Source: Frankia alni ACN14a (GTDB taxonomy: Bacteria > Actinomycetota > Actinomycetes > Frankiales > Frankiaceae). From it: a DNA stretch of 64,000 bases. Position numbers and translations under genes: made by a program. The notes below the pieces were generated by a model. The model made no database searches and was not told where the DNA came from. It worked only from the letters and a program-made list of their open reading frames with translations. The stretch is from positions 924,962 through 988,961 of the forward strand of contig NC_008278.1 of NCBI RefSeq assembly GCF_000058485.1, written 5' to 3'. Positions 6,785-21,506 of this stretch are shown one piece after another; the first letter of the stretch is position 1, and every line of letters begins with the position of its first letter.

Positions 6785-7399
6785 TCAGGCCGGTTTCGAC
6801 GCGATGCCCTCGTAGGCGAAGCCGAGTTGGGCTGTGCCGCGCATCGGAAAGGTGCTGGCCGACTCCAGCGCCAGTCCGGCCTTCTCGACCAGGTCGTCGA
6901 TCCGGCGGTTGAGGCGGCAGCCTCCGGCGATCCTGCTCCAGGCGGGTGTGATCCGGTCCTGCCAGCGGGCGACGGTGGGCCGGGGTGAGCGGCCGTGCTC
7001 GGTGAAGTGCAGTGTGCCGCCGGGCCGCAGTACGCGATGGATTTCGCGCAGTGCCCGTTCGGTGTCGGGGATGGTGCACAGTGTCCAGGTGGTCAGGACG
7101 TGGTCGACCGACGCGTCGGGAAGCTGCAGCGCCTGACCGTCGTCGCCGATGAACTCGACCGTGACGGGTGCGGCGGCGATGCGGGAGGCGGCGAGCGTGC
7201 GCCCCACGGAGGCGGGCTCGACCGCGAGCAGGCGGGTGACTCCCGCCGGAAGGTACGCGAGATTGCGTCCCGACCCGAAGCCGATCTCCAGGACCTCACC
7301 GGACAGGCCGGCCGTGACACGCGCCCTGGCCTTCTCCATCGGCCGGCCGAGGACGAGATCGACGATGCGGGGCAGCACCTGGTCGTCATAGAAGCCCAT
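6785..7399 (-). CDS. Class I SAM-dependent methyltransferase (Methyltransf_11 type)
   Basis: About 204 residues. Motif I is VLEIGFGSGRNL, the following acidic position is in LLAVEPAS, motif II-like GDDGQALQLPDASVDHV, and the C-terminal part carries REIHRVLRPGGTLHFTEHG, the layout of small UbiE/Methyltransf_11 enzymes. The substrate cannot be told from sequence; relatives include lipid, quinone and antibiotic methyltransferases. The ATG at 7399 has AAGGAG 5 bases upstream; the adjacent GTG at 7402 is too close. No operon partner is evident. Confidence 0.85.
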   Translation of the reverse strand: MGFYDDQVLPRIVDLVLGRPMEKARARVTAGLSGEVLEIGFGSGRNLAYLPAGVTRLLAVEPASVGRTLAASRIAAAPVTVEFIGDDGQALQLPDASVDHVLTTWTLCTIPDTERALREIHRVLRPGGTLHFTEHGRSPRPTVARWQDRITPAWSRIAGGCRLNRRIDDLVEKAGLALESASTFPMRGTAQLGFAYEGIASKPA

Positions 7400-7658
7400 C
7401 ACGACTCCTTATCGGGGCCTGGCCTGGGCGGCACCTGCGAAAGTCAGAGCCACCCTCGGCGCTGTCGGTGGAACCACGGGCCATCGGGGTTGCCTCGATG
7501 ATGGCCGAGACAGGCCGGACGGCTGCAGGATAGTCGCGACATCGACGGCCTGATCCCAGATCTGGAGCCGCTCGGGCCGAGGAGGGCAGCCACGCCGACC
7601 GCTGCGCGACAGCTCTCTTACGGCCCCCGGCCGGTGCCTGCGGAGGTGGATCGCTCGT
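7400..7658. other. Intergenic region between divergent genes
   Basis: This 259-base stretch separates the minus-strand methyltransferase from the plus-strand unknown gene. It must hold both promoters, but I see no clear dyad or coding frame in it. Confidence 0.4.
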
Positions 7659-8042
7659 ATGCGTCCCCCTTATCCTGCGGAGGTGGCTGTCACTCGCGTC
7701 CTGATCGTCGGTTTTGACCCCAACGCACTGCCGGGTGTCGACGCCGAGGCGATTGCGCGCGGTCTCGCGCACGGCCTTGAGCGCGTCCAGGCGGCTGGCT
7801 GTCTGGTCGAGCAACTCCTCGTCCCACTCGACGAGTCGGCCGTGGACCGGATCAAGCGAGCGGTTGTCGGCCAAGCATGGGATGTCATTGTCATCGGCGG
7901 CGGTATTCGCAAGCCCGAGCCGCTGCTGGAGTTTTTCGAGACCGTGGTCAACCTCATTCACAGCGGCGCGCCGGCCGCCAGGATCGCCTTCAACTCCGAC
8001 GGTGGATCAAGCCTCGAAGCCGTCCAACGGGTCCTGTCCTGA
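7659..8042 (+). CDS. Conserved hypothetical protein, single alpha/beta domain
   Basis: 127 residues with alternating hydrophobic strands and helices: TRVLIVGFDPNAL, CLVEQLLVPLD, WDVIVIGGGIR, AARIAFNSDGG. The pattern resembles a small Rossmann-like or flavodoxin-like fold, but I recognise no catalytic signature. The ATG has GGAGGTG about 10 bases upstream; an in-frame GTG at 7683 is possible and would remove eight residues. It stands alone between minus-strand genes. Confidence 0.7.
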   Translation: MRPPYPAEVAVTRVLIVGFDPNALPGVDAEAIARGLAHGLERVQAAGCLVEQLLVPLDESAVDRIKRAVVGQAWDVIVIGGGIRKPEPLLEFFETVVNLIHSGAPAARIAFNSDGGSSLEAVQRVLS

Positions 8043-8143
8043 CAAAATCCGCGGCCATCACCTGGTCCAGGTGTGCTGACCGAGGAATTTCGGTAGAATC
8101 ATGCGCACGCACCTGCAGGACGGAGTGGACGGTGCCATGGCGG

Positions 8144-8854
8144 TCACGATGCAAAGGCGGTTGCCGTGATGTCGCTCGCGAGGTGAACCGACTCGTGGCC
8201 GTAGACGTCGGGTCGGTCCAACCGCAGGACAAGGCAGAACCTGCGGTCGGCGCCGTAGGCTCGGCGCAGCTCCTCGAACCGGCACCGCAAATAGTGTGCG
8301 GCGGCAAGGTTGGTGACCCCCGTCTGGCCGGCAATCAGAAATAGCGGCCGAGCGCCTGGGGAAGGGAAGACCCTGGCCATTATCACGAATTCCCGCAGTC
8401 CGGGCTCTCGAACAAACTCGGAACCGCCGGCGACTATCGCGATCGAGTCGGGCTGATCTCGGCGGTACGGTGTGAAACCTGCGCCGGGGAGGTAGGTCGC
8501 GATATGCCCTGCTGTTCGGTTGTTGGCAAAGGGGCCACCGATGCAGAACTCAACCCGACCGCCGGTGCCCTCCCGAAACTGGTCGGACTGGAAAATCTGG
8601 AACCCCGTGCCTCCGTCGTTGGCGATACTCGCCACCTCGACTAACGCTCTGACATCGGAGCGCTGCACGCCGAACGGGTTGTTCATCTGCTGCCCGATGA
8701 CGACGGCACACTCCCCGGCGCCGGAGAGGCCGAAGAACGCTCCGTACCGACCTTTTCGTCGAAGAAACTCGACTCGCCGCCAGCTCCAGACCAGACTCCC
8801 GGTTACGACGCTGGTCGGAACGCCGATCGCGACATTGACCACTATCGATGACAT
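8144..8854 (-). CDS. Uncharacterised membrane-anchored protein
   Basis: 236 residues. An N-terminal hydrophobic stretch (SSIVVNVAIGVPTSVVTGSLVW) followed by basic WRRVEFLRRKGR looks like an uncleaved signal anchor. The body has ECAVVIGQ, VEFCIGGPFANNRTAGHI, DSIAIVAGG and LIAGQTGVTNLAAAHYL, motifs I have seen in a family scattered through streptomycetes and relatives, annotated only as hypothetical. GGGAG lies 4 bases before the ATG. Base composition is visibly lower in GC than the neighbouring genes, so transfer is possible. I do not assign a function. Confidence 0.7.
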   Translation of the reverse strand: MSSIVVNVAIGVPTSVVTGSLVWSWRRVEFLRRKGRYGAFFGLSGAGECAVVIGQQMNNPFGVQRSDVRALVEVASIANDGGTGFQIFQSDQFREGTGGRVEFCIGGPFANNRTAGHIATYLPGAGFTPYRRDQPDSIAIVAGGSEFVREPGLREFVIMARVFPSPGARPLFLIAGQTGVTNLAAAHYLRCRFEELRRAYGADRRFCLVLRLDRPDVYGHESVHLASDITATAFAS

Positions 8855-8923
8855 GTGACTCCCGAGAGGAGACGGCGCGGTCGCAGAGCCGCGGCGGTCG
8901 GGTGCCGTGCGATCATCGACCGC

Positions 8924-9586
8924 CTACTGCGGATTTTCGCTTTCCTCTGGTGTCTCATCTCGCCGCGTCACGGCGAGACCCAGGCGACGGCGCACCACCC
9001 GGCGACCGAGGTCCAGCACCGAGGGATCGTCGTACATCACGAAGCTCGTGTCGGCCGCCAGGAGCGTGCCGTTGAGCTCCAGGGCGAGCGCTGCCGGATC
9101 CTCGTCGGGCGGCAGTTGTCGGAGTTGGACCGCTGTTCGCACAACGTCGCGGATGAGCTGGACGAAGCCGGAGTGGAACTCGGCGACCTTCTCCTGCACC
9201 GGTCCGCGGTGCGTCCCCATCTCCAGCGCGGCGCCCGCGAAGAAGCACCCGCCGGGGAAGACCCGCCGTTCGAGATGATCGAAGAAGCCGTCGCAGAACG
9301 CGAGGAGCTGTGGCACGCCGGGGTCGGCCGTCAGCGCGGGCTCGATGACCTCCGACCGGAAGATGACGCCAGCCGCCTCGACGGTCGCGAGCTGCAGGTC
9401 CTGCTTGGAGTCGAAGTGGGCGTAGACACCGCCCTTGCTCATGCCCAGGTCCTTCGCGAGGTTGCCGATGCTCAGGCCCTCGAGGCCGTCGACGGTCGAC
9501 AGTCGCACCGCCGCGTCGAGGATCGCGGCGCGGGTGCGATCCCCGTCCGCTCGTCGCTGGCGCGTGCGCGTCGCCCTCTCCGCCAT
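8924..9586 (-). CDS. TetR/AcrR-family transcriptional repressor
   Basis: About 220 residues with an N-terminal helix-turn-helix (RAAILDAAVRLSTVDGLEGL, LAKDLGMSKGGVYAHFDSKQDL), the TetR signature. The C-terminal half is the ligand-binding/dimer domain with FPGGCFFAGAALEMG, as in the TetR_C subfamily that often governs small stress or redox genes. The ATG at 9586 is preferred (AGGA 8 bases upstream); an ATG at 9595 is alternative. It diverges from the DsrE-like gene, with two palindromes between them, so it probably represses itself and that gene. Confidence 0.92.
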   Translation of the reverse strand: MAERATRTRQRRADGDRTRAAILDAAVRLSTVDGLEGLSIGNLAKDLGMSKGGVYAHFDSKQDLQLATVEAAGVIFRSEVIEPALTADPGVPQLLAFCDGFFDHLERRVFPGGCFFAGAALEMGTHRGPVQEKVAEFHSGFVQLIRDVVRTAVQLRQLPPDEDPAALALELNGTLLAADTSFVMYDDPSVLDLGRRVVRRRLGLAVTRRDETPEESENPQ

Positions 9587-9611
9587 GACCCACATCCTAG
9601 TTGACGCGAGA

Positions 9612-9654
9612 AACGATCGTTCGTACTATCGCTCTATAAAAACGAACGTTCGTT
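9612..9654. promoter_or_regulatory. Paired palindromic TetR operators
   Basis: AACGATCGTT (9612-9621) is a perfect 10-bp palindrome and AACGAACGTTCGTT (9641-9654) a perfect 14-bp palindrome. Their centres are 31 bp apart, about three helical turns, in the AT-rich gap between the divergent TetR and DsrE-like genes. Both share the AACG...CGTT core, so one TetR dimer type could bind both. TATAAA between them may be part of a promoter. Confidence 0.8.
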
Positions 9655-9680
9655 CTTATACTGCGGAGGAGGGTTCGCCG

Positions 9681-10046
9681 ATGGCGAGCAAGGCGGTCAT
9701 CAGCCTGACCACGGGTCTCGAGGACCTCGAGAAGGTCACCGTCGCGTTTCTCGTGGCGGTCGGCGCCGCGGAGACCGGCAGGGAGACGCTCATGTTCCTG
9801 ACCCAGGAGGCGGTCCGGCTGGCACTGCCCGGGGAGGCGAAGGGCGAGGGTTGTGCCGGCTGCCCGCCGCTGGAGTCGCTCGTCGAGCGATACAGGATCG
9901 CCGGTGGCCGCTACTTCGTGTGCCCGATCTGCGTCGATGCCCGCAACATCGACGCCAGCCTGCTGATCGAGGGCGCGGAGCTGAACGGCACCGTCCCGAT
10001 GTGGAACTGGATCGGCGACGACGGCGCGACGACCTTCAGCTACTGA
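9681..10046 (+). CDS. DsrE-family small protein, TetR-controlled
   Basis: 121 residues with the DsrE/DsrF/YrkE-like alpha/beta pattern: LTTGLEDLEKVTVAFLVAVGAAETGRETLMFLTQEAVRLALPG. Two Cys pairs, CAGC (mid-protein) and CPIC, could carry sulfur or a redox disulfide; members of this family often act in sulfur relay or thiol chemistry. GGAGGAGGG lies 8 bases before the ATG. Its promoter coincides with the paired palindromes, so induction is expected when the divergent TetR protein releases DNA. Confidence 0.85.
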   Translation: MASKAVISLTTGLEDLEKVTVAFLVAVGAAETGRETLMFLTQEAVRLALPGEAKGEGCAGCPPLESLVERYRIAGGRYFVCPICVDARNIDASLLIEGAELNGTVPMWNWIGDDGATTFSY

Positions 10047-10086
10047 ACCGGCGTTCTCTGCCCGTCGGCATGCGGGCTGGCCCGCG

Positions 10087-10203
10087 TCAGTGCCCGAGGA
10101 CGCGGCGCAGGATCTGGTCGGCGCGTTGCCAGGCGTCCTCGCCCGGCACGACGGGGCAGACCACGACCCGGCCGGTGTTGGCCGTCCTGTCGACCCAGGC
10201 GCG
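10087..10203 (-). pseudogene. C-terminal gene remnant
   Basis: On the minus strand this stretch reads as a plausible protein tail (AWVDRTANTGRVVVCPVVPG, then DAWQRADQILRRVLGH and TGA), with a stop just upstream and no start codon or ribosome site. I take it for the leftover end of a deleted gene. The parent family is not identifiable from 38 residues. Confidence 0.35.
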
Positions 10204-10359
10204 TCAACGGCCGCCGCTACCGCGACGCGGTCGTCCCGATGCACGAGGTCGGGGTGATGCTTGAGTTCCGTGCCTGGTCCGCCCGTCGGACGGCCCGCCC
10301 CGGCCGGAGTGAACGGTGGTCCACGACTTTCGCGATTCTTCCGACTGAAAGGACCCTCG

Positions 10360-10740
10360 GTGGAGATTGTTCGCGCTGCATCGGTGCCGGACCTGGGGCC
10401 GCAGCATCAGGGACTGTCCTCGCTGTGGCTACGCGGTCCGGGGCAGGACGACTCACTCGACGTCGCCATCGTCGGATTCGAGCCGGGATCCGCCACGCCC
10501 CCGCACGTGCACCACGGTGGTCAGACGCTTGTCATCCTCTCGGGCCAGGGCTTCGTGGAGGTCGATGGAGTGCGGACCGAGGTGTCGACCGGGGACATCG
10601 TCGTCAGCCCGCCCGGAGAGTCGCACGTGCACGGCGCAGCGGACGACACTGCCATGGTGCACGTCTCGGTCACGACGGGCCGTAACGAGCTTCTCCGGGG
10701 CCTCGGCCCTGCTGCCGCCGGGGATACGGCAGTCGAGTAA
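10360..10740 (+). CDS. Cupin-domain protein
   Basis: 126 residues forming one cupin barrel. Cupin motif 1 is HVHHGGQTLVILSGQGFVEVDG with the metal-binding His cluster, and motif 2 is GDIVVSPPGESHVHG. Such small cupins bind Mn, Fe or Zn and act as dioxygenases, isomerases or sensors; the reaction is unknown. GTG at 10360 was chosen because GAAAGGA ends 7 bases upstream; the upstream frame-open extension lacks a ribosome site. The gene converges with the phosphotransferase gene. Confidence 0.88.
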   Translation: MEIVRAASVPDLGPQHQGLSSLWLRGPGQDDSLDVAIVGFEPGSATPPHVHHGGQTLVILSGQGFVEVDGVRTEVSTGDIVVSPPGESHVHGAADDTAMVHVSVTTGRNELLRGLGPAAAGDTAVE

Positions 10741-10771
10741 AGCGGCGGGCAGGTCGCCGCGGTGCGCACCC

Positions 10772-12139
10772 TCAGCCCAGCCAGCGTCCGAAGGGCTGCA
10801 TCGTGTGGTGGGCGGCCATGGCGGAGCCGGCGGGGCCCATCAAAGCCTTGTAGCGCTGCCAGCGGCGGTTGAACAGGACGACGAGTTCCGCGTCGTGGCG
10901 ACCCTCGTCGGCGAGGACGAAGTTCTCCAGCGCCGTCTCGCATTCGTCCCAGCTCTTCGGCGCGCGGCCGACGAGCCGGGCGAGGTCCTCCCGATCGGCC
11001 TCGGTGACGGCCGCGCCGATCTGGTCGGCGCGTTCGAGGTGGCGGGCCAGGCGGAAGGCGATGCGGATCTGGTAGGTGACGTACGGGTCCTCGACCGAGA
11101 TCGACCGCAGCGAGCGGGACAGGTGCTGGTGCGGGATGGAGACGGGGGAGGAGACCGGCTCGGGGATCTCCACGGGTTCGAGGTCGATGCCCAGGTACTC
11201 CGCCATGGTCTCGACGGCGTGCAGGTTCGTCTCGCTGACCCACTGGGCGTAGGTCATGTAGTCGGTGTCCAGGGTCGGGCGGGCCAGCGGGCCGTGGAAG
11301 GAGAGCTGGTTGGTGAGGGTGAAGAACAGGTGGTGCCACTGGATGGCGGCGAGGTCGACGGGCCGGCCGGTCAGCTCGGCGTACCGGTCGTACAGCACGG
11401 GGAACTCGCCGTAGGGGATGACGGTGTCGCGCATCCGCCAGGCGGCGAGGTCCATCATCGGGTCGCCGATGTGGCCGATCTCGACGTCGACAAGGGCGAC
11501 GAGGTGGCCGTCGGCGTGGTGGAACTGGCCGGAGTCCCAGACGATGGGCGCCTCGCGGTCGGAGGCGGGCAGCGGGTGGCGGCGCAGCCAGCCGAGGACG
11601 AACTCCATCAGCGGGTCGGGGCGCGTCTTGCTCGATCGGTAGTGCTGCTCGAACCGGCGTACTCCGATCATCGCGGAGTCGCTCGGCGACGTCCCGGAGA
11701 TGACCCCGGCGGCCTTGAACGGCTCGACCGGGAGCTGGTGCATCCTCGCCAGTGCCTGCAGGTACTCGTCGACCACCACGTGGCGTTCGTCGTCGGTGGT
11801 GCCGGCGAAGTCGGGCCGGCCGGGGACGGCGGCCATCGCGTACGCCCTCGGTTCGTCGCACCAGCCGTGCACGCGCGGGACCGGGACACCGTGCTCGTCG
11901 AGCAGCCGCTGGAACAGCATCTCGTGTTCGAGCGGGAAGATCAGGGACGTGTCGGACCGTTCGCCCCGCACGACGACGCGTTCGGTGACGCCGCCGCGGT
12001 CGATGTCGACGAACCACATGGGCCGCCATCTCGGCTGCCGTTCCCACGACACGACCTGGCCGCCGAGCAGGGACTCCAGCCAGGCTATGACGCGACCGTC
12101 GTCCTTTAACTCCGTGTCACGGGCATCCGATGCAGCCAT
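10772..12139 (-). CDS. Phosphotransferase-family (APH/choline kinase fold) protein
   Basis: About 455 residues with the aminoglycoside phosphotransferase-like kinase fold: ERVVVRGERSD and EHEMLFQRLLDEHGVPVPRVHGW in the N-lobe, LARMHQLP in the linker, and VALVDVEIGHIGDPMMDLAAW as the metal-binding segment. The catalytic-loop position, normally HGDxxxxN, reads SGQFHHAD here, so the usual catalytic Asp is Gln. A long C-terminal helical extension follows. The substrate is unknown; relatives act on acyl-CoA-like or small alcohol substrates. ATG at 12139 has GGAGG 6 bases upstream; the ATG two codons earlier is too close to it. Confidence 0.8.
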   Translation of the reverse strand: MAASDARDTELKDDGRVIAWLESLLGGQVVSWERQPRWRPMWFVDIDRGGVTERVVVRGERSDTSLIFPLEHEMLFQRLLDEHGVPVPRVHGWCDEPRAYAMAAVPGRPDFAGTTDDERHVVVDEYLQALARMHQLPVEPFKAAGVISGTSPSDSAMIGVRRFEQHYRSSKTRPDPLMEFVLGWLRRHPLPASDREAPIVWDSGQFHHADGHLVALVDVEIGHIGDPMMDLAAWRMRDTVIPYGEFPVLYDRYAELTGRPVDLAAIQWHHLFFTLTNQLSFHGPLARPTLDTDYMTYAQWVSETNLHAVETMAEYLGIDLEPVEIPEPVSSPVSIPHQHLSRSLRSISVEDPYVTYQIRIAFRLARHLERADQIGAAVTEADREDLARLVGRAPKSWDECETALENFVLADEGRHDAELVVLFNRRWQRYKALMGPAGSAMAAHHTMQPFGRWLG

Positions 12140-14795: not shown

Positions 14796-15707
14796 TCAGC
14801 CGACGTGGGTGGGCGGTAGGCCGCGGGCGGCCACCTCGGCGCGGACGGCCGGGATGATCTCGCGGGCCACGAGTTCCTGTTGGGCGACGGTCGGGATGGC
14901 CAGCAGCAGCGCGGTGAAGCCGACCGCCAGGATCTCCAGGAGCTGGTCGATCACCTCCTGGACACCGCCGGCCACCGCGCCGGCGCCCGGCTGCGGCGGC
15001 GCCCCGACGCGCACGATCACGTTGCAGGCGCAGGTGATTGCGGCGGGATCGCGGCCCGCGTCACGGGCGGCCGCCAGCACGGACTCGCGCATCCGGCGGG
15101 CGCCCTCGAGGCCGATGCGGCCCACCGACGGCAACCAGCCGTCGGCGAGCTCACCGGTCAGCGCGAGCGCCCGTGGCCCGTACGACCCGAGCCAGATCGG
15201 GATCGGATGGTCGGGGCGAGGCTCGATGCGGGCGCCGTCGACGGAGAACTCGCGGCCGCGCACGGTGGTTGACTCGTTCGACCAGAGCCCGCGGATGATC
15301 GTGATGGCCTCGCGCTGACCGGTGATCTTCTGCCCGGGGGTCCGGTCGGGCAGGCCGAAGGCGCGGAACTCCTCGTCGTATCCGCCCCCGCCCAGGCCGA
15401 GGACGAACCGGCCGCCGGAGACCCGGTCCAGCGTCTCGGCCGTCTTCGCGACCACCGCCGGCGGCCGGTAGGGCAGCGCCAGGACGTTCGTGGCCAGCTC
15501 GATGCGGCGGGTCTGGCCGGCCAGCCAGCTCAGGGCGGACAGCGGCTCGACGGTCCGGCTGTGACCGTGCAGGTGGTCGCTCAGGCTGAAAAGGTCGTAG
15601 CCGAGTTCGTCGGCGCTCTGGGCAAGATCCAGGGTTTGCGACGCGGACAGCCCGCTCACCGCACCGCCGGCGCCGAACACCAGCCGGGACCCGTCCAGGC
15701 GGCTCAC
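14796..15707 (-). CDS. Luciferase-like (LLM), probably F420-dependent, oxidoreductase
   Basis: 303 residues with the bacterial luciferase-like TIM barrel: SADELGYDLFSLSDHLHG, RIELATNVLALPYRPP, VVAKTAETLDRVSGGRFVLGLGGGGY, and PIPIWLGSYGPRALALTGELADGWLPS. In actinobacteria most such proteins use F420H2 rather than FMNH2, but cofactor choice is inference. The substrate is unknown. GTG start at 15707. It diverges from the MarR gene, whose operator-like dyad lies between them, so it is a likely MarR target. Confidence 0.88.
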   Translation of the reverse strand: MSRLDGSRLVFGAGGAVSGLSASQTLDLAQSADELGYDLFSLSDHLHGHSRTVEPLSALSWLAGQTRRIELATNVLALPYRPPAVVAKTAETLDRVSGGRFVLGLGGGGYDEEFRAFGLPDRTPGQKITGQREAITIIRGLWSNESTTVRGREFSVDGARIEPRPDHPIPIWLGSYGPRALALTGELADGWLPSVGRIGLEGARRMRESVLAAARDAGRDPAAITCACNVIVRVGAPPQPGAGAVAGGVQEVIDQLLEILAVGFTALLLAIPTVAQQELVAREIIPAVRAEVAARGLPPTHVG

Positions 15708-15997: not shown

Positions 15998-16444
15998 GTG
16001 GGCGCGACGTTCACGACACCGGTGGCCCTGGTGCGGCTGTCCTACCTGGTGAACTCGATCTACGCCGACGTCTGCGCCGGTCACGGCCTGTCCGTGCCGC
16101 AGGCCCAACTGATGTGTGTCCTCAGGGACCAGTCCCGCGGCATGGGTGAGATCAGCGTGATGCTCCGACTGGACAAGTCCAGCGTCACCGGCCTGGTCGA
16201 GCGGGTGGAGCGCCGCGGCTACCTGGGTCGCGCCATGTCGGCGACCGACCGGCGCGCCGTCACCGTCTCCCTCACCCCGGAGGGCAAGCGGCTCACCGAC
16301 GCCTTCTACGACGAGGTCAGCCAGCGGCTGACCGACCTCGTCGCCCACGTCCCGGCCGCCGATCGGGATCATCTGGCCCGCATCGCCACCGAGATCGTTG
16401 TCGACGAGGGCGTTCCCGACGTGTTCGGTGCCCTCGCGTCCTGA
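15998..16444 (+). CDS. MarR-family transcriptional regulator
   Basis: 148 residues. The winged helix is evident: LSVPQAQLMCVLRDQSRGMGEISVMLRLDKSSVTGLVERVERRGYLGRAMSATDRRAVTVSLTPEGKRL, where DRRAVTVSLT is the wing. MarR proteins release DNA on binding small phenolic or oxidative ligands; the ligand here is unknown. GTG start with GGGAG 7 bases upstream. It probably controls itself and the divergent luciferase-like oxidoreductase. Confidence 0.92.
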   Translation: MGATFTTPVALVRLSYLVNSIYADVCAGHGLSVPQAQLMCVLRDQSRGMGEISVMLRLDKSSVTGLVERVERRGYLGRAMSATDRRAVTVSLTPEGKRLTDAFYDEVSQRLTDLVAHVPAADRDHLARIATEIVVDEGVPDVFGALAS

Positions 16445-16518: not shown

Positions 16519-17328
16519 TCAGAAGCGGCAGCGCAGAGGGGTGGCGAAGGTCGGGGGCGGGGCGGCGAGGGCGGCGCGGATCGAGCGTTCGAGCACCGAG
16601 TCATCGGCGTCGTCCTCGCGGTCGAGGCGCAGGGGAGCGCGCAGCCCCGCCTCGGTGTTGCTGATGAACCTGGGTGGTCCGGTTCGTTTGAACCCGCGGG
16701 TGTGGAACAGGAAGGGGTGGGCGAGGATCACGTCCCCGGCCGCTCCGGTCAACTCGGTGAAACTACCGATGGGCTCGGCGAGGACGGCCTCGAACAGCTC
16801 CAGGTGGGTCAGGCCGCCGGGATGCTCGGCGAGCACCCGCGCGGTGCGCAGGTGGGAGCCCTCCGCCACCAGCGTCGCGCCGCCGCCCGGCTCGACGTCC
16901 GAGAACAGGCCGATGACCAGCAGACCCTGCCGGGACGCGTCGAGCGTGTGCCGGAACCAGTTGCCGTCGACGTGCCAGCCGGTGGTCGGCACTTCACGCG
17001 GGTCGCCGGCGCCGTGACTGAAGTTCACCGGCCAGAACCCCCAGCCGCGCTCGCCGCGCCACCGGCCGGGTCCGACGAGGTCCGAGATCGCGTGGGCGAG
17101 CGGGTCGGTGAAGCAGGCGAGCACCTCCGGCACCGCCAGCCGCTCCTCGATGTCGTAGCCCGGCGGCCAGGTGCTCGGGTCGTCCTCGCGGATGCCGGCC
17201 TTCTGCGTCATCCGCCGCCAGACCGCCCGACGGGCCGCGGCCGCCTGCGCGGCGGTGAACGCCGCCCGCAGCACGCAGAAGCCGCGTTCGACGAACGCGT
17301 CGCGATCCGCCGCCGTCAGCACCGCCAT
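16519..17328 (-). CDS. Phytanoyl-CoA dioxygenase-type Fe(II)/2-oxoglutarate enzyme
   Basis: 269 residues. The double-stranded beta-helix iron ligands are visible: His119 and Asp121 in GWHVDGNW, and the distal His209 in HPFLFHTRGF with Arg220 (PPRFISN) for 2-oxoglutarate. DVEPGGGATLVAEGSHL is the PhyH hallmark strand. It should hydroxylate an unactivated C-H bond using O2 and 2-oxoglutarate. It is the last gene of the ATP-grasp/Lys-Asp-repeat operon, 32 bases after the previous stop, with GGAGGGGGAG 7 bases before its ATG, so it probably acts on the modified repeat protein or a product of it (inference from context). The upstream in-frame extension lacks support. Confidence 0.85.
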   Translation of the reverse strand: MAVLTAADRDAFVERGFCVLRAAFTAAQAAAARRAVWRRMTQKAGIREDDPSTWPPGYDIEERLAVPEVLACFTDPLAHAISDLVGPGRWRGERGWGFWPVNFSHGAGDPREVPTTGWHVDGNWFRHTLDASRQGLLVIGLFSDVEPGGGATLVAEGSHLRTARVLAEHPGGLTHLELFEAVLAEPIGSFTELTGAAGDVILAHPFLFHTRGFKRTGPPRFISNTEAGLRAPLRLDREDDADDSVLERSIRAALAAPPPTFATPLRCRF

Positions 17329-17360
17329 CCGACTGCTCCCCCTCCCCGGTCCGGGCAGCT

Positions 17361-18158
17361 TCACCAGTAGAGCAGCCAGGAGTCGCCGCTCCAGATGCCG
17401 TGCCCCTGGAGGGTCAGCCGCTCGTCTCCCGGGCGCACCGATGCCGACGGGGCGATCTGGTGCAGCAGCAGCCCGGAGTGCACGACGAGCTCACCGGGGC
17501 TGTACGGCACGTACTGGAGCGGGTGGAAGCGCCGCAGGTCGCCGACACTGTCGATCAGATCCCGCCGCATCGCCTCCAGGAACGTGGCGTGGCTGACCGG
17601 CCAGGTGTTGAGGCCGCCGCCGGCCGCGGGCACCCGCAGCGGCAGGGTGAACGAGAACACCCGACTCGCGTCGACCTCATCGGGCCAGTCGAAGAGCCGG
17701 TACTGGAGGTCGAAGTGCACGGAGGCGCGTGGGCGGGTGAACACGGCCTCGGTGAACCACACGTGAAACCCGGGCAACGCGAACCACTCGGTGAACCGGA
17801 CCGGGGCATTGAGGACGTCGACGAGCGCGGCGGCGAGCCGGTTGTAGAGCCAGCCGAACCGATCCCACAGCAGCGGCCGGTGCCGCGCGGCGCGATCGTG
17901 GTAGTCGCCCGACTGAGAGTTCGGCGTGAGGTCGAGATAACTGGGCGTGCCGAGGGTGTGGAAGCCGGCGCCTCGCTCGATCCAGCTCGGCCGCTCCCGG
18001 TGCACCGCGTCACGGACGTTCTCGGCCTCCCGCGCCGACAACAGCCGCACGGTCGAGACGTCCGGCCGAGCCGCGGACCTGGCCGCGGTCGTCCTCGCGG
18101 TCGTGGTCGTCCCTGCGGTCATGGTCGTCCCCGCGGCCGTGGTTGCGATCGTGGTCAT
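17361..18158 (-). CDS. Putative Fe(II)/2-oxoglutarate-type dioxygenase
   Basis: 265 residues. After a Thr/Ala-rich leader (residues 1-30), the protein has RASVHFDLQYRLFDW with a His148-x-Asp150 iron pair, a beta strand pair VFSFTLPLRVP and LNTWPVSH, and a distal His (GELVVHSGLLLHQIAP, His227 or His233) followed by Arg247. This spacing fits a 2-oxoglutarate oxygenase barrel, although it is not the PhyH family and I know no close characterised relative. Its ATG overlaps the TGA of the ATP-grasp gene (ATGA), and GAGGAGG lies 5 bases upstream, so the two are translationally coupled. Likely a tailoring hydroxylase of the same pathway. Confidence 0.72.
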   Translation of the reverse strand: MTTIATTAAGTTMTAGTTTTARTTAARSAARPDVSTVRLLSAREAENVRDAVHRERPSWIERGAGFHTLGTPSYLDLTPNSQSGDYHDRAARHRPLLWDRFGWLYNRLAAALVDVLNAPVRFTEWFALPGFHVWFTEAVFTRPRASVHFDLQYRLFDWPDEVDASRVFSFTLPLRVPAAGGGLNTWPVSHATFLEAMRRDLIDSVGDLRRFHPLQYVPYSPGELVVHSGLLLHQIAPSASVRPGDERLTLQGHGIWSGDSWLLYW

Positions 18159-19276
18159 CCCATCCTCCTCGCAGCGGGTCCGGGGGTTGTCGTGACAGGT
18201 GCGGCGTGGTCGACGGTCGGCTGGTCGGCGGTCGGCTGATCGACGGTGGGCCGGTCGACGGCGGGTCCGAAGGCGGCTGGGCGGCGGGTGAGCAGGTCGA
18301 CCAAGGAGGCGGTGACGACGCCGCCGGCCCGGCGGTCGTACCAGTCGTAGCCGGGCATCGGGTTCGCCTCCAGCACCCAGTACCGGTCCCCGTCGACGCG
18401 CAGGTCCCAGCCGGCGAGCAGCAGGCCGGACTCGGCGGTCGCGGCGACGAGCAGCCTCACCAGGTCTCCGGGCAGGTCGACGTCGCTGAACTCGAGGTCG
18501 GCGGCATCGAGTTCGCGGTAGTCGACCGCCGCGGCGCCCTGTCCGTCCCCGTCGGATCGGCGTCGAACGATCTGCTGGGCGTGGACGGCGCCACCGCAGA
18601 CGTGGACGCGGACGTCCACTCCCGCGACGTACCGCTGGAGGTGCACCGGGCCCCGCCCGGTGCTGAAGCCGGCGGCCACGGTGAACTCCCCCGGGGCGAC
18701 GCGTCGGGTCCGGGCGCGCACCCCCGACAGCGGCTTGACGATCGTCGGTCCGGCCGCGGCGAACGCCCACAGCCGCTCGCCGTCGGAGCTGGTCAGACTC
18801 TCCGGTACCGCGAAGCCCGCCCGCGCGAGTCGAGCCTCGTGCAGCGGCTTCGCGCCGTTGTCCGCCCAGGCGCTCGGCCGGTTGGCGACGGGCCCCGGCA
18901 CGTGGTCGAGCCACGCCGCCAGAGCGCCGACGAGCGCGCGCCACCGGGCCGCCAGCCGTGGGGCGGCTTCCAGACTGGACAGGTCGGCGAGCCGGACGAA
19001 GTACCCGCCCGCCGGGTCCAGGTCGAGCGCCTGCCGGCCGGTGACGAGCCGACTGGCGCCGTCGTCCGGAATCGCCAGCCGCCAGTCGCCGGTGCGCACG
19101 ACGTCGGCGAGGTCGATCGCGACGACGCCGGCCCCGCGCCGGCCCGCCCCGTCGACGAAGTGTCGCCAGGTGCCATCCGAGCCCAGCCCGATCGCGTAGA
19201 TCGGTGCGGCGACATGGTCGGGCGGGCCGTCGCCTGCGTCGCGCGGCGGCGCGGCCTGGCTGCCGGGACTCCCCAC
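18155..19276 (-). CDS. ATP-grasp ligase (RimK/MvdD-like)
   Basis: 373 residues with the diagnostic ATP-grasp features: GPTIVKPLSG with Lys181 for ATP, LQRYVAGVDVRVHVCGG with Asp221/Arg223, GWDLRVDGDRYWVLEANPMPGYDW with Asp291, Glu303 and Asn305 as Mg ligands. Enzymes of this branch form amide or ester bonds from a carboxyl-phosphate and include the graspetide (microviridin-type) macrocyclases that join Lys or Thr side chains to Asp/Glu. A poorly conserved tail with DQPTADQPTVDH repeats follows residue 335. GTG start with GGAGG 6 bases upstream, 1 base after the preceding stop. A Lys-Asp/Glu-repeat protein gene two genes upstream is the obvious substrate candidate. Confidence 0.85.
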   Translation of the reverse strand: MGSPGSQAAPPRDAGDGPPDHVAAPIYAIGLGSDGTWRHFVDGAGRRGAGVVAIDLADVVRTGDWRLAIPDDGASRLVTGRQALDLDPAGGYFVRLADLSSLEAAPRLAARWRALVGALAAWLDHVPGPVANRPSAWADNGAKPLHEARLARAGFAVPESLTSSDGERLWAFAAAGPTIVKPLSGVRARTRRVAPGEFTVAAGFSTGRGPVHLQRYVAGVDVRVHVCGGAVHAQQIVRRRSDGDGQGAAAVDYRELDAADLEFSDVDLPGDLVRLLVAATAESGLLLAGWDLRVDGDRYWVLEANPMPGYDWYDRRAGGVVTASLVDLLTRRPAAFGPAVDRPTVDQPTADQPTVDHAAPVTTTPGPAARRMG

Positions 19277-19277
19277 C

Positions 19278-20186
19278 TCAGGCCTCCGATCCGGGGAACA
19301 GGACCGTGAGTAGATGCGGACCGAGACCGAGCCAGGTCATGCGAACAATGTCGAGCCCCGGGAACGGATCGACGTCGACGAGGTGGGCGCTGCCCCCGTC
19401 GTCGCCGACCCGCCAGATCAGCGCGGCGAGGGTGAGCCCGAGCCGTTCGACCACCGCCAGGCTGCGGCCGGGCAGGTCGAGGTCGTCGATCTCGGCGGTC
19501 GTGCATCGCCAGGCGGACCCGGCGAGGACCACCACCACCTCGAAGACCGGGTCGGCCGCCGACCACCGCGCCCGGAACGGACCGCCGGCCGCGGGCGGCT
19601 GCGGCCAGCGCGCCGTCTCCCGGGTGACGGCGTCCTGCACCCACCACGCCTCGTCGGTCTGGCGGGCGGGGTCGGGGTAGGTCGAGGAGAAGACCTCGAT
19701 CGAACTCACCGGTTGCCCGGCCGCCATGTCGGTGAGGGCCGCCGAGCCGGAGACGGCGCTGCCGAACGCGACAACGGACGGCCGGTTCACGACGGGCAGG
19801 TCGGTGAGGGCGGCCGCCGCCCACAGCAGGGCGACGCACTCCTGGTACTGGAACTGCGCGTCGGGGCGCGCACCGGCGCCGACGACGGGGGGCGGGGGAA
19901 CCCGCAACAACATCGGCACCCGGGGCGTCACGAGGGCGGACCTGCCCGACACCGCGACGGTGAACAGTTGTGCCGCGTGGAAGGGGTCGAGGACGACGGC
20001 ACGCCGGCCGACCTCGTCCAGGTACTCGGCTACGAAGGAGGCGACCGCGTCATCGGGCTCGGCGACGATCAGCAGGTCGTCCTCGTCCAGCGCGGACGTG
20101 AGACCGGGCGTTGGCGTTGGCGTTGGCGTGATCCGGGCTGTCGGCGCGAGGGAGGCGGGGGCTGCGGCGTCGGTCTCGGCGGTCAT
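19278..20186 (-). CDS. Degenerate ATP-grasp-like partner protein
   Basis: 302 residues. Residues ~35-75 (DDLLIVAEPDDAVASFVAEYLDEVGRRAVVLDP) look like a pre-ATP-grasp Rossmann-like domain, and SLAVVERLGLTLAALIWRVGDDG followed by AHLVDVDPFPGLD parallels the C-terminal ATP-grasp motif. The metal-binding E-x-N of that motif is D-x-D, and I see no equivalent of the nucleotide-binding IVKP strand, so it is probably catalytically inactive. The gene lies between the repeat-protein gene (12 bases) and the ligase (1 base). No good ribosome site precedes the ATG, which suggests re-initiation from the upstream gene. A scaffold or leader-binding role is inferred from context. Confidence 0.65.
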   Translation of the reverse strand: MTAETDAAAPASLAPTARITPTPTPTPGLTSALDEDDLLIVAEPDDAVASFVAEYLDEVGRRAVVLDPFHAAQLFTVAVSGRSALVTPRVPMLLRVPPPPVVGAGARPDAQFQYQECVALLWAAAALTDLPVVNRPSVVAFGSAVSGSAALTDMAAGQPVSSIEVFSSTYPDPARQTDEAWWVQDAVTRETARWPQPPAAGGPFRARWSAADPVFEVVVVLAGSAWRCTTAEIDDLDLPGRSLAVVERLGLTLAALIWRVGDDGGSAHLVDVDPFPGLDIVRMTWLGLGPHLLTVLFPGSEA

Positions 20187-20198
20187 CGTGGCGTTCGT

Positions 20199-20861
20199 TC
20201 AGATCACCACGCCGGCCAGCCGCAGGTAGCGGTTGATCCGGGAGGCGCGGAGCGTGGCGGCGACGTCGTCGGCGACGTCGTCGGGGTCGTGGCCGGGGTC
20301 GTGGCCGGTGCGGCCCGTCGCCGACGCCCGTGCCCACTCGGAATCATCGAGGTGACCGTCCTGCGGGTTGCCGTCCTTCGCATATCGGTCAGGCGGGTGC
20401 TCGACGCTGGGCGAGCCAACGGGTGAGCGGCCGGACGTGTCGTTCGGGAAGCGCGTGGTGGGCGCGCCGACGCCCGGATCCGCCCGATCCCACCGATCTT
20501 TCCCGTCTTTGGTATCTTTTGTGTCTTTTCCGTAATCCTTGGTGTCCTTGAATTCCTTCCCGTCCTTGCGGTCCTTGCCGTCCTTGCCGTCCTTGACATC
20601 CTTCCATTCCTTGCTGTCCTTCCCCTCCTTGCCGTCCTTGCTGTCCTTCCCGTCCTTGCCGTCCTTGAAGTCCTTGAACTTGCCGGACGGGCTCCTGGCG
20701 AAGGTGCCGGGCAGCCCGGCGGTCAGCAGTTCGGAGGAGGTCTCCTCCGGCGACTCGGTCGTGTCCTTCTGCAGTCGTGACCACAGCACGGCCATCACGT
20801 TGTGGCGGTCGTCAGCCGTCAGGAACGGCATCACGCGGGCTTCGTCCATGGACCAGGGCAT
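20199..20861 (-). CDS. Lys-Asp/Glu repeat protein, candidate modified-peptide precursor
   Basis: 220 residues in three parts. Residues 1-60 are an ordinary, leader-like sequence (MPFLTADDRHNVMAVLWSRLQ...). Residues 63-123 are 20 consecutive Lys-Asp/Glu-X units (17 Asp, 3 Glu; one unit carries an extra Gly). Residues 124-220 are hydrophilic, ending LRLAGVVI. No signal peptide or Cys. AAGGAGG lies 10 bases upstream of ATG 20861, the strongest site of the operon, consistent with a protein needed in excess over its enzymes. The regular pairing of a side-chain amine and carboxylate suits ATP-grasp-catalysed amide cross-linking as in microviridins, but this repeat is unlike graspetide cores I know. 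A disordered polyampholyte is the alternative. Confidence 0.75.
   Translation of the reverse strand: MPWSMDEARVMPFLTADDRHNVMAVLWSRLQKDTTESPEETSSELLTAGLPGTFARSPSGKFKDFKDGKDGKDSKDGKEGKDSKEWKDVKDGKDGKDRKDGKEFKDTKDYGKDTKDTKDGKDRWDRADPGVGAPTTRFPNDTSGRSPVGSPSVEHPPDRYAKDGNPQDGHLDDSEWARASATGRTGHDPGHDPDDVADDVAATLRASRINRYLRLAGVVI
20493..20675 (-). repeat. 9-bp tandem repeat encoding Lys-Asp-X units
   Basis: About twenty 9-base units of the form AAG-GAC-NNN on the minus strand (GTCCTTNNN on the plus strand). The Lys and Asp/Glu codons are nearly invariant while the third codon varies (Gly, Ser, Thr, Phe, Val, Trp, Arg, Tyr), and one unit has an added codon. Period and frame are kept throughout. Confidence 0.92.
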
Positions 20862-20952
20862 CGCCGGTCAACCTCCTTGGCGTTGCTGCTCTGTCAGCAG
20901 GTGCTGCTGCGTGGTGAGCTGGTGCTGCGTCGTGGGATGGTGCCGGCGGTGC

Positions 20953-21114
20953 GTCGCCGGGCGGGTGGAACAGGAGATGGTCGAAGACCCAGAGGAAGTC
21001 GAAGCCCGCGGACTCCGCCTGCTGCGCAGGATCTCGTACGTCGAGGTGGGATGGTTGTTTCCAGGGATATTCGGAGACTGGAAGCACCACGCCGACCTGC
21101 AACGTGGCGCCCAT
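20953..21114 (-). pseudogene. N-terminal fragment of a luciferase-like oxidoreductase
   Basis: From ATG 21114 the frame reads like the start of an LLM oxidoreductase: LQVGVVLPVSEYPW, AQQAESAGFDFLWVFDHLLF, PPGD. After about 54 residues the similarity stops and the frame runs into Ala/Pro-rich sequence overlapping the start of the repeat-protein gene. The rest of the barrel is absent, so this is a truncated remnant directly upstream of the operon. Confidence 0.6.
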
Positions 21115-21506
21115 TGAAGCTCGACCGAACGTGACGGCGGCCTCCACGGTCTCCATCGTAGCCAGCGGCGGTTACGTTTTTCGAGCGTTGACGAACGTTT
21201 CCCCAGGCGCCGGCGGCCGGGTCGAGGCCCTGGCCGGGAAAGCGGGAAACTGCGGGACGGCGTTCGCCGGTTCCGGCGGTCGCCGATTCACGGGACGCCA
21301 CCCGGACGTGTACGAATCCCGGCGCGGGCCACCGTCACACCCGGTGGGAATCCGACGGCTTCGTCGCCGCCGCTGTCGATTGCCCGAGGCGCCGGCCGGA
21401 TCGAGGGGCGGGGCTCCGGGAACCGGGGACGAACCTCTCCTATCCTCTCATCAGGCACCTGGGCTGTTGTCGCCGATCGGGGCGGACGAGCGTAGTGGAG
21501 GCAGCG
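21115..21506. other. Intergenic region, about 390 bases
   Basis: It lies between the pseudogene start and the DUF574 gene. AT-richer patches near 21160-21200 (TTACGTTTTTCGAGCG) could hold promoters. I see no supported gene. Confidence 0.35.

Follow-up and report, generated by a model that had tools for sequence, protein, structure and literature searches.

Related systems

In the corallotide system of Corallococcus (graspetide group 15, CorA-CorD), an ATP-grasp ligase joins Lys to Asp in KxxxD motifs, the linked Asp lying at +4 as reported in 2026; after linkage, a 2-oxoglutarate (2OG) enzyme, which has a second role as an activator of the ligase, 5-hydroxylates the Lys (at the delta-carbon); once linked, the Lys is resistant to trypsin, and the core aggregates (PMC13097080). 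Here we describe an operon of five genes, with counterparts in other actinobacteria, in the soil- and root-dwelling bacterium Frankia alni ACN14a, located in a 64,000-nucleotide stretch of contig NC_008278.1 (assembly GCF_000058485.1, positions 924,962 to 988,961 of the forward strand; termed the window), which probably encodes a pathway of the graspetide type for a ribosomally synthesized and post-translationally modified peptide (RiPP), with a repeat-bearing precursor (gene 1), a non-catalytic partner (gene 2), an active ATP-grasp ligase (gene 3) and oxygenases (genes 4 and 5) that would together yield a Lys(i)-acid(i+4) lactam ladder followed by hydroxylation. The pathway is most likely graspetide-type; its core, its predicted pseudo-ligase partner and its enzyme set appear to be new, and the apparent use of one array design for two chemistries is its most surprising feature.

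The Frankia system shares with corallotide a large precursor with repeated Lys-acid motifs, an ATP-grasp annotated TIGR04187, a (here predicted) partner dependence, and an Fe/2OG oxygenase in the cluster, which in corallotide is CorC, hydroxylating the linked Lys (PMC13097080), and for which a similar role is predicted here. Unlike the period-3 array of Frankia, the corallotide core has five separate KxxxD motifs, and its cluster is described as precursor, ligase, oxygenase and beta-lactamase-like CorD, with no second ATP-grasp, luciferase-like monooxygenase (LLM) or PhyH enzyme in that description (PMC13097080). CorC is described there as a PF13640 protein, and genes 4 and 5 do not match PF13640, which sets the system apart; a Pfam search of genes 1-5 (E up to 1) found neither a PF13640 oxygenase nor a beta-lactamase-like PF00144 protein. 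Corallotide is reported from Corallococcus only, and the main text of the same 2026 survey, with its 43 RODEO groups, makes no mention of Frankia or Streptosporangium; plesiocin is described there as having repeated cores (PMC13097080). No paper on this operon was found in a library of open-licence papers. A first reading from the letters of the window and a list of its open reading frames (ORFs), the sequence-only reading, had known of no described graspetide with this core or enzyme set; corallotide has partly overtaken that statement, and the core, the predicted pseudo-ligase and the enzyme set still differ.

In a phylogenomic survey of 2022, the ATP-grasp loci of branch 8 contain, beside an ATP-grasp, a second one that is truncated and described as inactive; no precursor was predictable for them and peptidases are present in most (PMC8939145). 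Unlike the truncated copy of branch 8, the second ATP-grasp of the Frankia operon can be modelled over most of the fold, and the operon includes a precursor gene.

The closest solved ligases for genes 2 and 3 are those of plesiocin (PsnA/PsnB) and the microviridins (MdnA/MdnB/MdnC). These peptides carry mainly Thr/Ser-Glu/Asp ester rings in other core patterns, and we know of no oxygenases in their systems; the predicted Frankia product would be an unusual member of the wider microviridin kinship. Two ATP-grasps stand side by side in the microviridin system, both of them active, whereas one of the two copies in the Frankia operon appears degenerate. The prunipeptin ligase PruB of Streptomyces coelicolor (PDB 9bou) also resembles gene 3 (second-best profile match); prunipeptin is a small bicyclic product, and its system contains, to our knowledge, no pseudo-ligase or oxygenase.

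Organization of the operon

The five minus-strand genes and the spacing (12, 1, -4 and 32 bases) given by the sequence-only reading were confirmed from the ORF coordinates (16519-20861), and the five-gene set is real and conserved. Gene 1 is separated from gene 2 by 12 bases and gene 2 from gene 3 by one; genes 3 and 4 overlap by 4 bases, and genes 4 and 5 are 32 bases apart given an ATG start of gene 5 at 17328, which matches the starts chosen in six of the seven other rows of the gene-5 alignment (an alternative GTG start at 17364 gives a longer gene that overlaps gene 4). That list of five genes had left out an LLM-type remnant upstream of gene 1. The features are as follows, with the analyses on which they rest in brackets.

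20812..21156, minus strand: remains of an LLM oxidoreductase gene, of which some 60 codons from the start can still be recognised; relatives carry an intact copy immediately upstream of gene 1 (family and relative comparison)
20199..20861, minus strand: gene 1, putative precursor protein of 220 aa, with leader, K-[D/E]-x array, variable linker and conserved C-terminal tail (alignment and shuffles)
20682..20861, minus strand: gene 1 leader, residues 1-60, with a conserved [DE]xRVxPFLxxxxRR-like motif (precursor alignment)
20496..20675, minus strand: gene 1 core array, 20 K-[D/E]-x units at residues 63-122, with an extra Asp at residue 125 (array analysis)
20202..20270, minus strand: gene 1 conserved C-terminal tail, a possible follower or second recognition site (precursor alignment)
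19278..20186, minus strand: gene 2, predicted degenerate graspetide-ligase homologue (pseudo-ATP-grasp) of 302 aa without lysine (fold search, Lys count, ligase-profile matches of two relatives)
18155..19276, minus strand: gene 3, ATP-grasp ligase of 373 aa, with K143, K181, D221-x-R223 and E303-x-N305 intact (profile and alignment)
17361..18158, minus strand: gene 4, Fe(II)/2OG-type oxygenase with WelO5-like fold, H148-x-D150...H233 and R247 (alignment and fold search)
16519..17328, minus strand: gene 5, PhyH-type Fe(II)/2OG oxygenase, H131-x-D133...H221 and R232 (Pfam, alignment and profile)

PhyH on gene 5 was the sole Pfam family matched across genes 1-5 at E up to 1, PADLOC gave no match for these genes at E up to 0.01, and a promoter and terminator scan of the operon was uninformative. 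In the related locus L022 (likeliest starts), the LLM gene overlaps gene 1 by 1 base, and genes 2/3, 3/4 and 4/5 overlap by 4 bases each; the set therefore looks translationally coupled there.

Conservation of the locus

A protein search of 58 genomes showed that four others, from the same genus or family, encode close homologues of the ligase (68-91% identity). A pattern scan of 84,980 species genomes with two conserved ligase peptides, which required the exact peptides and hence missed divergent relatives, gave eight confirmed loci: Frankia sp. AiPs1, F. nepalensis, Parafrankia sp. EUN1f, Microtetraspora sp., Streptosporangium subroseum, Streptomyces musisoli, S. actinomycinicus and Paractinoplanes ferrugineus, i.e. 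Frankiaceae, Streptosporangiaceae, Streptomyces and Paractinoplanes. The loci of AiPs1, F. nepalensis and EUN1f lie on the same contigs as L012, L014 and L015, and Frankia and Parafrankia are the closest named relatives of the window that the analysis returned. The sequence-only reading had staked its pathway on conservation of the repeat gene next to the ligase, and this held in the genome comparison: the precursor adjoins the ligase in 8/8 loci, and the Lys-acid-rich precursor, the gene-2 partner and gene 4 are all beside the ligase in each of them.

Matches to the gene-2 profile were obtained in 5/35, 9/393, 4/297, 6/250 and 3/300 genomes (partly overlapping samples). Gene-2 and ligase homologues occur together in 18 distinct loci (the window, L012-L016, L022-L026, L041, L054, L055, L065-L067 and L069); L042 was excluded as a copy of L026, and the weak gene-2 matches in G014 (L058), G785 (L068) and G922 (L070), with no ligase-profile match in the stretch compared, were left out. 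By core type, the 18 loci comprise 14 with Lys-acid cores, three with mainly Ser/Thr-Glu cores, and one (L067) with a short core holding four K[DE] pairs. Ten of the Lys-acid cores are strict period-3 arrays with 12 to 27 lysines (two with one inserted residue), and four are less regular (L025, L054, L066, L069). The gene order is rearranged in L066 (gene 5, gene 4, precursor, partner, ligase) with the set retained.

The Ser/Thr-type precursors of L016, L041 and L055 have similar leaders and 10-12 units of mainly [Ser/Thr]-Glu-x, and their ORFs are found beside a gene-2-like pseudo-ligase and an ATP-grasp:

L016:10461-10703: Ser/Thr-Glu-x precursor ORF
L041:3487-3768: Ser/Thr-Glu-x precursor ORF
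L055:7370-7681: Ser/Thr-Glu-x precursor ORF

Judged by their cores, these loci are a sister system with putative ester-type donors. No oxygenase was found in them, the search in L041 and L055 being limited by contig ends. Gene 4 is present in 14/14 Lys-core loci, gene 5 in 10/14 and an intact LLM gene in 8/14, and none of these genes was found in the three Ser/Thr-core loci (0/3) or in L067 (0/1). On a ligase tree rooted with the ATP-grasps of L017, L018, L056 and L057, which lack a gene-2 match, one change divides the 14 Lys rows from the three Ser/Thr rows.

The ATP-grasp pair

The gene 3 family profile matched solved graspetide synthetases in the PDB, with PsnB (7drm, 2.4e-26) followed by PruB (9bou, 1.3e-17, spanning profile positions 1-294 of 299), MdnC (5ig9, 2.7e-12), MdnB (5ig8, 1e-10) and CdnC (9.2e-10). 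K143, K181, D221-x-R223 and E303-x-N305 are invariant in 12/12 aligned rows and align with the KP, YK, DVR and ELN of PsnB, in keeping with the earlier description of gene 3 as an ATP-grasp with all its catalytic residues. K143 and K181 are the only two lysines of the window protein, and the PsnB lysines to which they align are presumably ATP-site residues; D221-x-R223 and E303-x-N305 we take to be the DxR motif and the metal-binding E-x-N. By profile and residues, the gene 3 ligase is of the predicted graspetide-synthetase type. A RimK-like role, in which free amino acids would be attached to side chains or to the conserved precursor C-terminus and no cross-links would form, is highly improbable: RimK-type chains also match the profile (best 1.3e-7) and the precursor C-terminus is indeed conserved, whereas graspetide ligases match much better, and amino-acid addition fails to explain a periodic Lys-acid array that switches to Ser/Thr-Glu.

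Gene 2 matched no Pfam family at E up to 1, and nothing reached the cut-off in Pfam or NCBIfam; the profiles of genes 2 and 3 are weakly related when compared alone (probability 43%, 62 columns). Despite this, the description of gene 2 as degenerate and ATP-grasp-like was upheld by its AlphaFold2 model, for which the first 31 PDB rows in Foldseek (chains of eight entries) were all graspetide ligases (PsnB, E 6.6e-9), and which gave Z 11.6 over 233 residues (rmsd 5.0) with PsnB. We regard gene 2 as a ligase homologue because of this fold search and because the ligase profile matches the gene-2 relatives of L025 and L069 (6e-4). The window protein has no lysine, and the family has none in 7/12 rows and at most two in the others; given the fold placement and these absent or few lysines, gene 2 is read as a pseudo-ligase, the term 'inactive' being based on the missing lysines.

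The putative precursor and its array

Gene 1 was predicted to encode about 20 tandem Lys-Asp/Glu-X units, and it does: 20 of its 22 K[DE] pairs lie in one tandem array (residues 63-122, one residue inserted) whose longest unbroken run is 16 units, while 2000 shuffles of the protein never gave a run of more than three. The Asp at residue 125 stands four past the last array Lys. As in graspetide precursors, the gene is next to the ligase, and its product combines a leader with a core in which Lys/Ser/Thr donors and Asp/Glu acceptors abound; the window protein matched no Pfam family at E up to 1, including PF12559, PF14404 and PF14406-PF14409, the graspetide precursor families named in PMC8939145.

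Nine precursors were aligned with that of the window (31-88% identity to it). The leader residues V10, P12, F13 and R19 are invariant in 10/10 rows, as are L204, R208, L213 and I220 of the tail; the tail motif LRASRxxRxLRxxGxVI (LRASRxNRYLRxxGVVI in Frankiaceae) is full or near-full in 9/10 rows, with only traces in L025. Between the window and L012, the ratio of non-synonymous to synonymous substitution rates (dN/dS) of gene 1 is 0.117 for the core, 0.33 for the leader and 0.84 for the tail, and in five pairwise comparisons the array Lys positions had 0 changes of 82 versus 13 synonymous changes; the core ratio and the zero are both partly built in, since the alignment anchors on Lys.

It is very unlikely that the repeat protein stays unmodified, as a charged or collagen-like structural protein, while the ligase and oxygenases act on another substrate. 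The best NCBIfam match of gene 1 is the streptococcal collagen-like SclB (7.9e-6, far under the cut-off at 25 of 325 bits), and G-K-D read in that frame resembles collagen triplets; Gly fills the third position in 9/22 K[DE] units of the window but in just 2/17 in L013 and 1/24 in L022, so a collagen-like protein was ruled out. The repeat gene also abuts or overlaps its neighbours, and it stays with the ligase in the rearranged L066.

Register of the proposed links

Of the 191 lysines in the ten strict Lys arrays, all 191 have an acid at +1, 189 have one at +4, 179 at -2 and none at +3. Every KDxKD of the array contains the KxxxD spacing, and repeated KxxxD, the mark of the corallotide group, is present (189/191 array lysines with a +4 acid). 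At the end of each array (10/10), an Asp stands at +4 of the last Lys and a residue other than Lys at +3, in tails that hold just 7-16% acids. Since the last Lys always has an Asp four on, the arrays point to putative Lys(i)-Asp(i+4) links, and their ends would fit arrays that run only as far as is needed to give the final donor an acceptor at i+4. The Ser/Thr arrays have an acid at +4 of 32/33 donors, the exception being the last unit of L041, and in two of the three the last donor is followed by Met or Gly at +3 and Glu at +4. Among the irregular cores (L025, L054, L066, L067, L069), +1 is the strongest offset in 5/5, and 4/5 show enrichment at +4 (z of at least 2).

The same pathway could operate in another register, with links between adjacent Lys and Asp (i, i+1) or from a Lys back to the Asp at -2, which would give a string of small separate rings; we consider this unlikely. 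An acid follows every strict-array Lys (191/191) and +1 leads in all five irregular cores (29/30 in L066, 14/22 in L025); the -2 acid is enriched in L066, L069 and L054, and the Ser or Thr at +3 of the last Lys in 6/10 arrays may be a further unit. The -2 acid is, however, depleted in L025 (2/22), and an Asp at exactly +4 of the last Lys (10/10), or an acid there in 2/3 Ser/Thr arrays, would serve no purpose in an i,i+1 scheme when Trp, Ile, Met or Gly occupies +3 (Trp or Ile in 4/10 Lys arrays); corallotide links Lys to the +4 Asp (PMC13097080).

Links between molecules, giving a cross-linked protein network or fibre as a structural material, are improbable, although the sequence-only reading had named a networked peptide beside a ladder-like one. 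Array length does differ among relatives (12 to 27 lysines in the strict Lys arrays), and the corallotide core aggregates, but characterised graspetide ligases are described as forming macrocycles within one precursor (PMC13097080), and the +4 spacing at the array end is hard to account for by intermolecular links.

The oxygenases

In gene 4, H148-x-D150...H233 and R247 are invariant in 11/11 rows, and in gene 5, H131-x-D133...H221 and R232 in 8/8 rows. Both genes thus encode the H-x-D...H facial triad and 2OG-binding Arg of an Fe(II)/2OG oxygenase (residue roles being assigned from conservation), and their earlier description as dioxygenase-like proteins with H-x-D...H sites was correct. The two are not close relatives of one another (hhalign E 0.31). 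Gene 4 has no Pfam or NCBIfam match at cut-off and was assigned by fold comparison (model with a predicted local distance difference test score, pLDDT, of 85; WelO5, E 2.7e-10). WelO5-type halogenases are thus its fold relatives, with weak sequence similarity, and unlike WelO5, gene 4 has the Asp ligand of HxD; hydroxylases keep this Asp, and WelO5 does not. Gene 5 is a PhyH (Pfam) protein, and its nearest solved profile relative, again with weak sequence similarity, is the leucine hydroxylase 5nch (0.0016), which we take to be GriE.

The LLM oxidoreductase

An intact LLM-class oxidoreductase gene is found directly upstream of gene 1 in eight loci (L013-L015, L022-L024, L026, L065); it overlaps the start of gene 1 in seven, and in L065 it ends about 25 bases before. 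The L013 copy scores above the cut-off of TIGR03619 (F420-dependent LLM enzymes; 178 versus 166.9 bits). Only the N-terminal part of the gene is recognisable in the window and in AiPs1 (L012). Between these two, genes 1-5 have dN/dS values of 0.24-0.55 despite the decayed LLM gene, and the LLM step therefore seems dispensable in the lineage of the window and AiPs1.

A second, separate LLM-class gene is located at 14796-15707 of the window, past a MarR regulator (15998-16444), and may stand in for the decayed upstream copy; L012 also has an LLM-profile match downstream.

Proposed pathway

The graspetide reading is put forward because the ligase profile matches solved synthetases, because of the fold of gene 2, and because the neighbourhood is conserved in 8/8 loci; Lys-Asp lactams with subsequent hydroxylation are proposed because of the corallotide precedent and the KxxxD spacing in every KDxKD. 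The following steps are predicted from gene content, homology, conservation and motif spacing. Gene 1 would supply the precursor: its leader bears the VxPFL motif, and a tandem array of donors and acceptors and the conserved tail come after it. Gene 3 would phosphorylate Asp/Glu side chains of the array, and attack by Lys side chains would then close isopeptide bonds (lactams), the i+4 acid being the most likely partner of Lys(i); successive bonds would overlap and give a ladder of up to 19 rings in the Frankia alni protein. Gene 2, the lysine-free ligase homologue, would have a supporting, non-catalytic role, either holding the precursor or activating gene 3. Gene 4, perhaps with gene 5 where present, would hydroxylate linked Lys or neighbours, and the LLM enzyme, where intact, would add a further redox step. 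As the likeliest product we expect up to 19 lactam rings that overlap in a ladder and are hydroxylated in part. The earlier proposal that the ligase makes Lys-Asp/Glu links and the dioxygenases hydroxylate is thereby supported by comparison, i.e. by the ligase type, the 8/8 loci and the corallotide precedent.

Several points weigh against this pathway or parts of it. The gene 3 match to TIGR04187 has an E-value of 4.2e-20 and is far below the cut-off (72 bits against 350). The gene 2 model is of only moderate confidence (pLDDT 62), with template modelling scores to graspetide ligases of about 0.4 to 0.5; RimK and biotin-carboxylase-type ATP-grasps reach Z 10.2 with it (versus 11.6 for PsnB), a PDB search with the gene-2 profile (E up to 1) returned no ATP-grasp, and a C-terminal D/E-x-D could still bind metal, which weakens 'inactive'. 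As to the register, the unit before the inserted Gly in the window and in L012 has its acid at +5, and the acid at +1 is more constant than that at +4 and strongest in all five irregular cores, so that adjacency may be the link or an added requirement; the Ser or Thr at +3 of the last Lys (6/10) could be a donor, i.e. one more ester-type unit without a +4 acid of its own. The association of Lys donors with oxygenases appears to rest on a single event, because one change on the ligase tree separates the core types. L067, with its four K[DE] pairs, has no gene-4 homologue or oxygenase in the 16 kb compared, and each Ser/Thr array has one Lys unit, yet no oxygenase was found there; both speak against a strict Lys-oxygenase rule. 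Finally, no protease, transporter, immunity or resistance gene was recognised among genes 1-5 (Pfam, NCBIfam).

A more specific form of the proposal can be made only tentatively: a gene-encoded ladder peptide, i.e. a period-3 array of 10 to 27 units that may be stapled end to end by overlapping i,i+4 links through an active ATP-grasp and an obligate dead copy, with one array design serving two chemistries, Lys-Asp lactams that are then hydroxylated and mainly Ser/Thr-Glu esters without an oxygenase. The Ser or Thr at +3 of the last array Lys in 6/10 arrays makes it less probable, and the other register more so. If true, a small set of enzymes, including a pseudo-ligase partner and a Lys-hydroxylating activity, would make rod-like peptides with some twenty consecutive side-chain staples, and a programmable route to stapled helices or ladder polymers would be available in which repeat number sets length. 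The operon would then also be a clear case for asking why a ligase retains an adjacent degenerate homologue, and the Lys-Asp and Ser/Thr-Glu clades would be a natural experiment on the choice of lactam or ester.

Other features of the related loci

L067 has a short precursor-like ORF with GKESS[DE] motifs (8563-8871) beside a gene-2-like protein and a divergent ATP-grasp, perhaps an intermediate type. In the divergent loci L025 (7292-7693) and L067 (8868-9164), a gene for a pentapeptide-repeat protein, a possible immunity or partner protein, is located directly upstream of the precursor. An IS110-type transposase gene lies between genes 4 and 5 of L013 (7263-8462) on the opposite strand, and both genes stay open. 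In L014, the operon adjoins a gene (7347-10982), convergent with gene 5, whose product has TIR and TPR domains and matches NB-ARC weakly, and a gene that resembles it by eye has the same placement in L013 (2530-6201), likewise convergent with gene 5.

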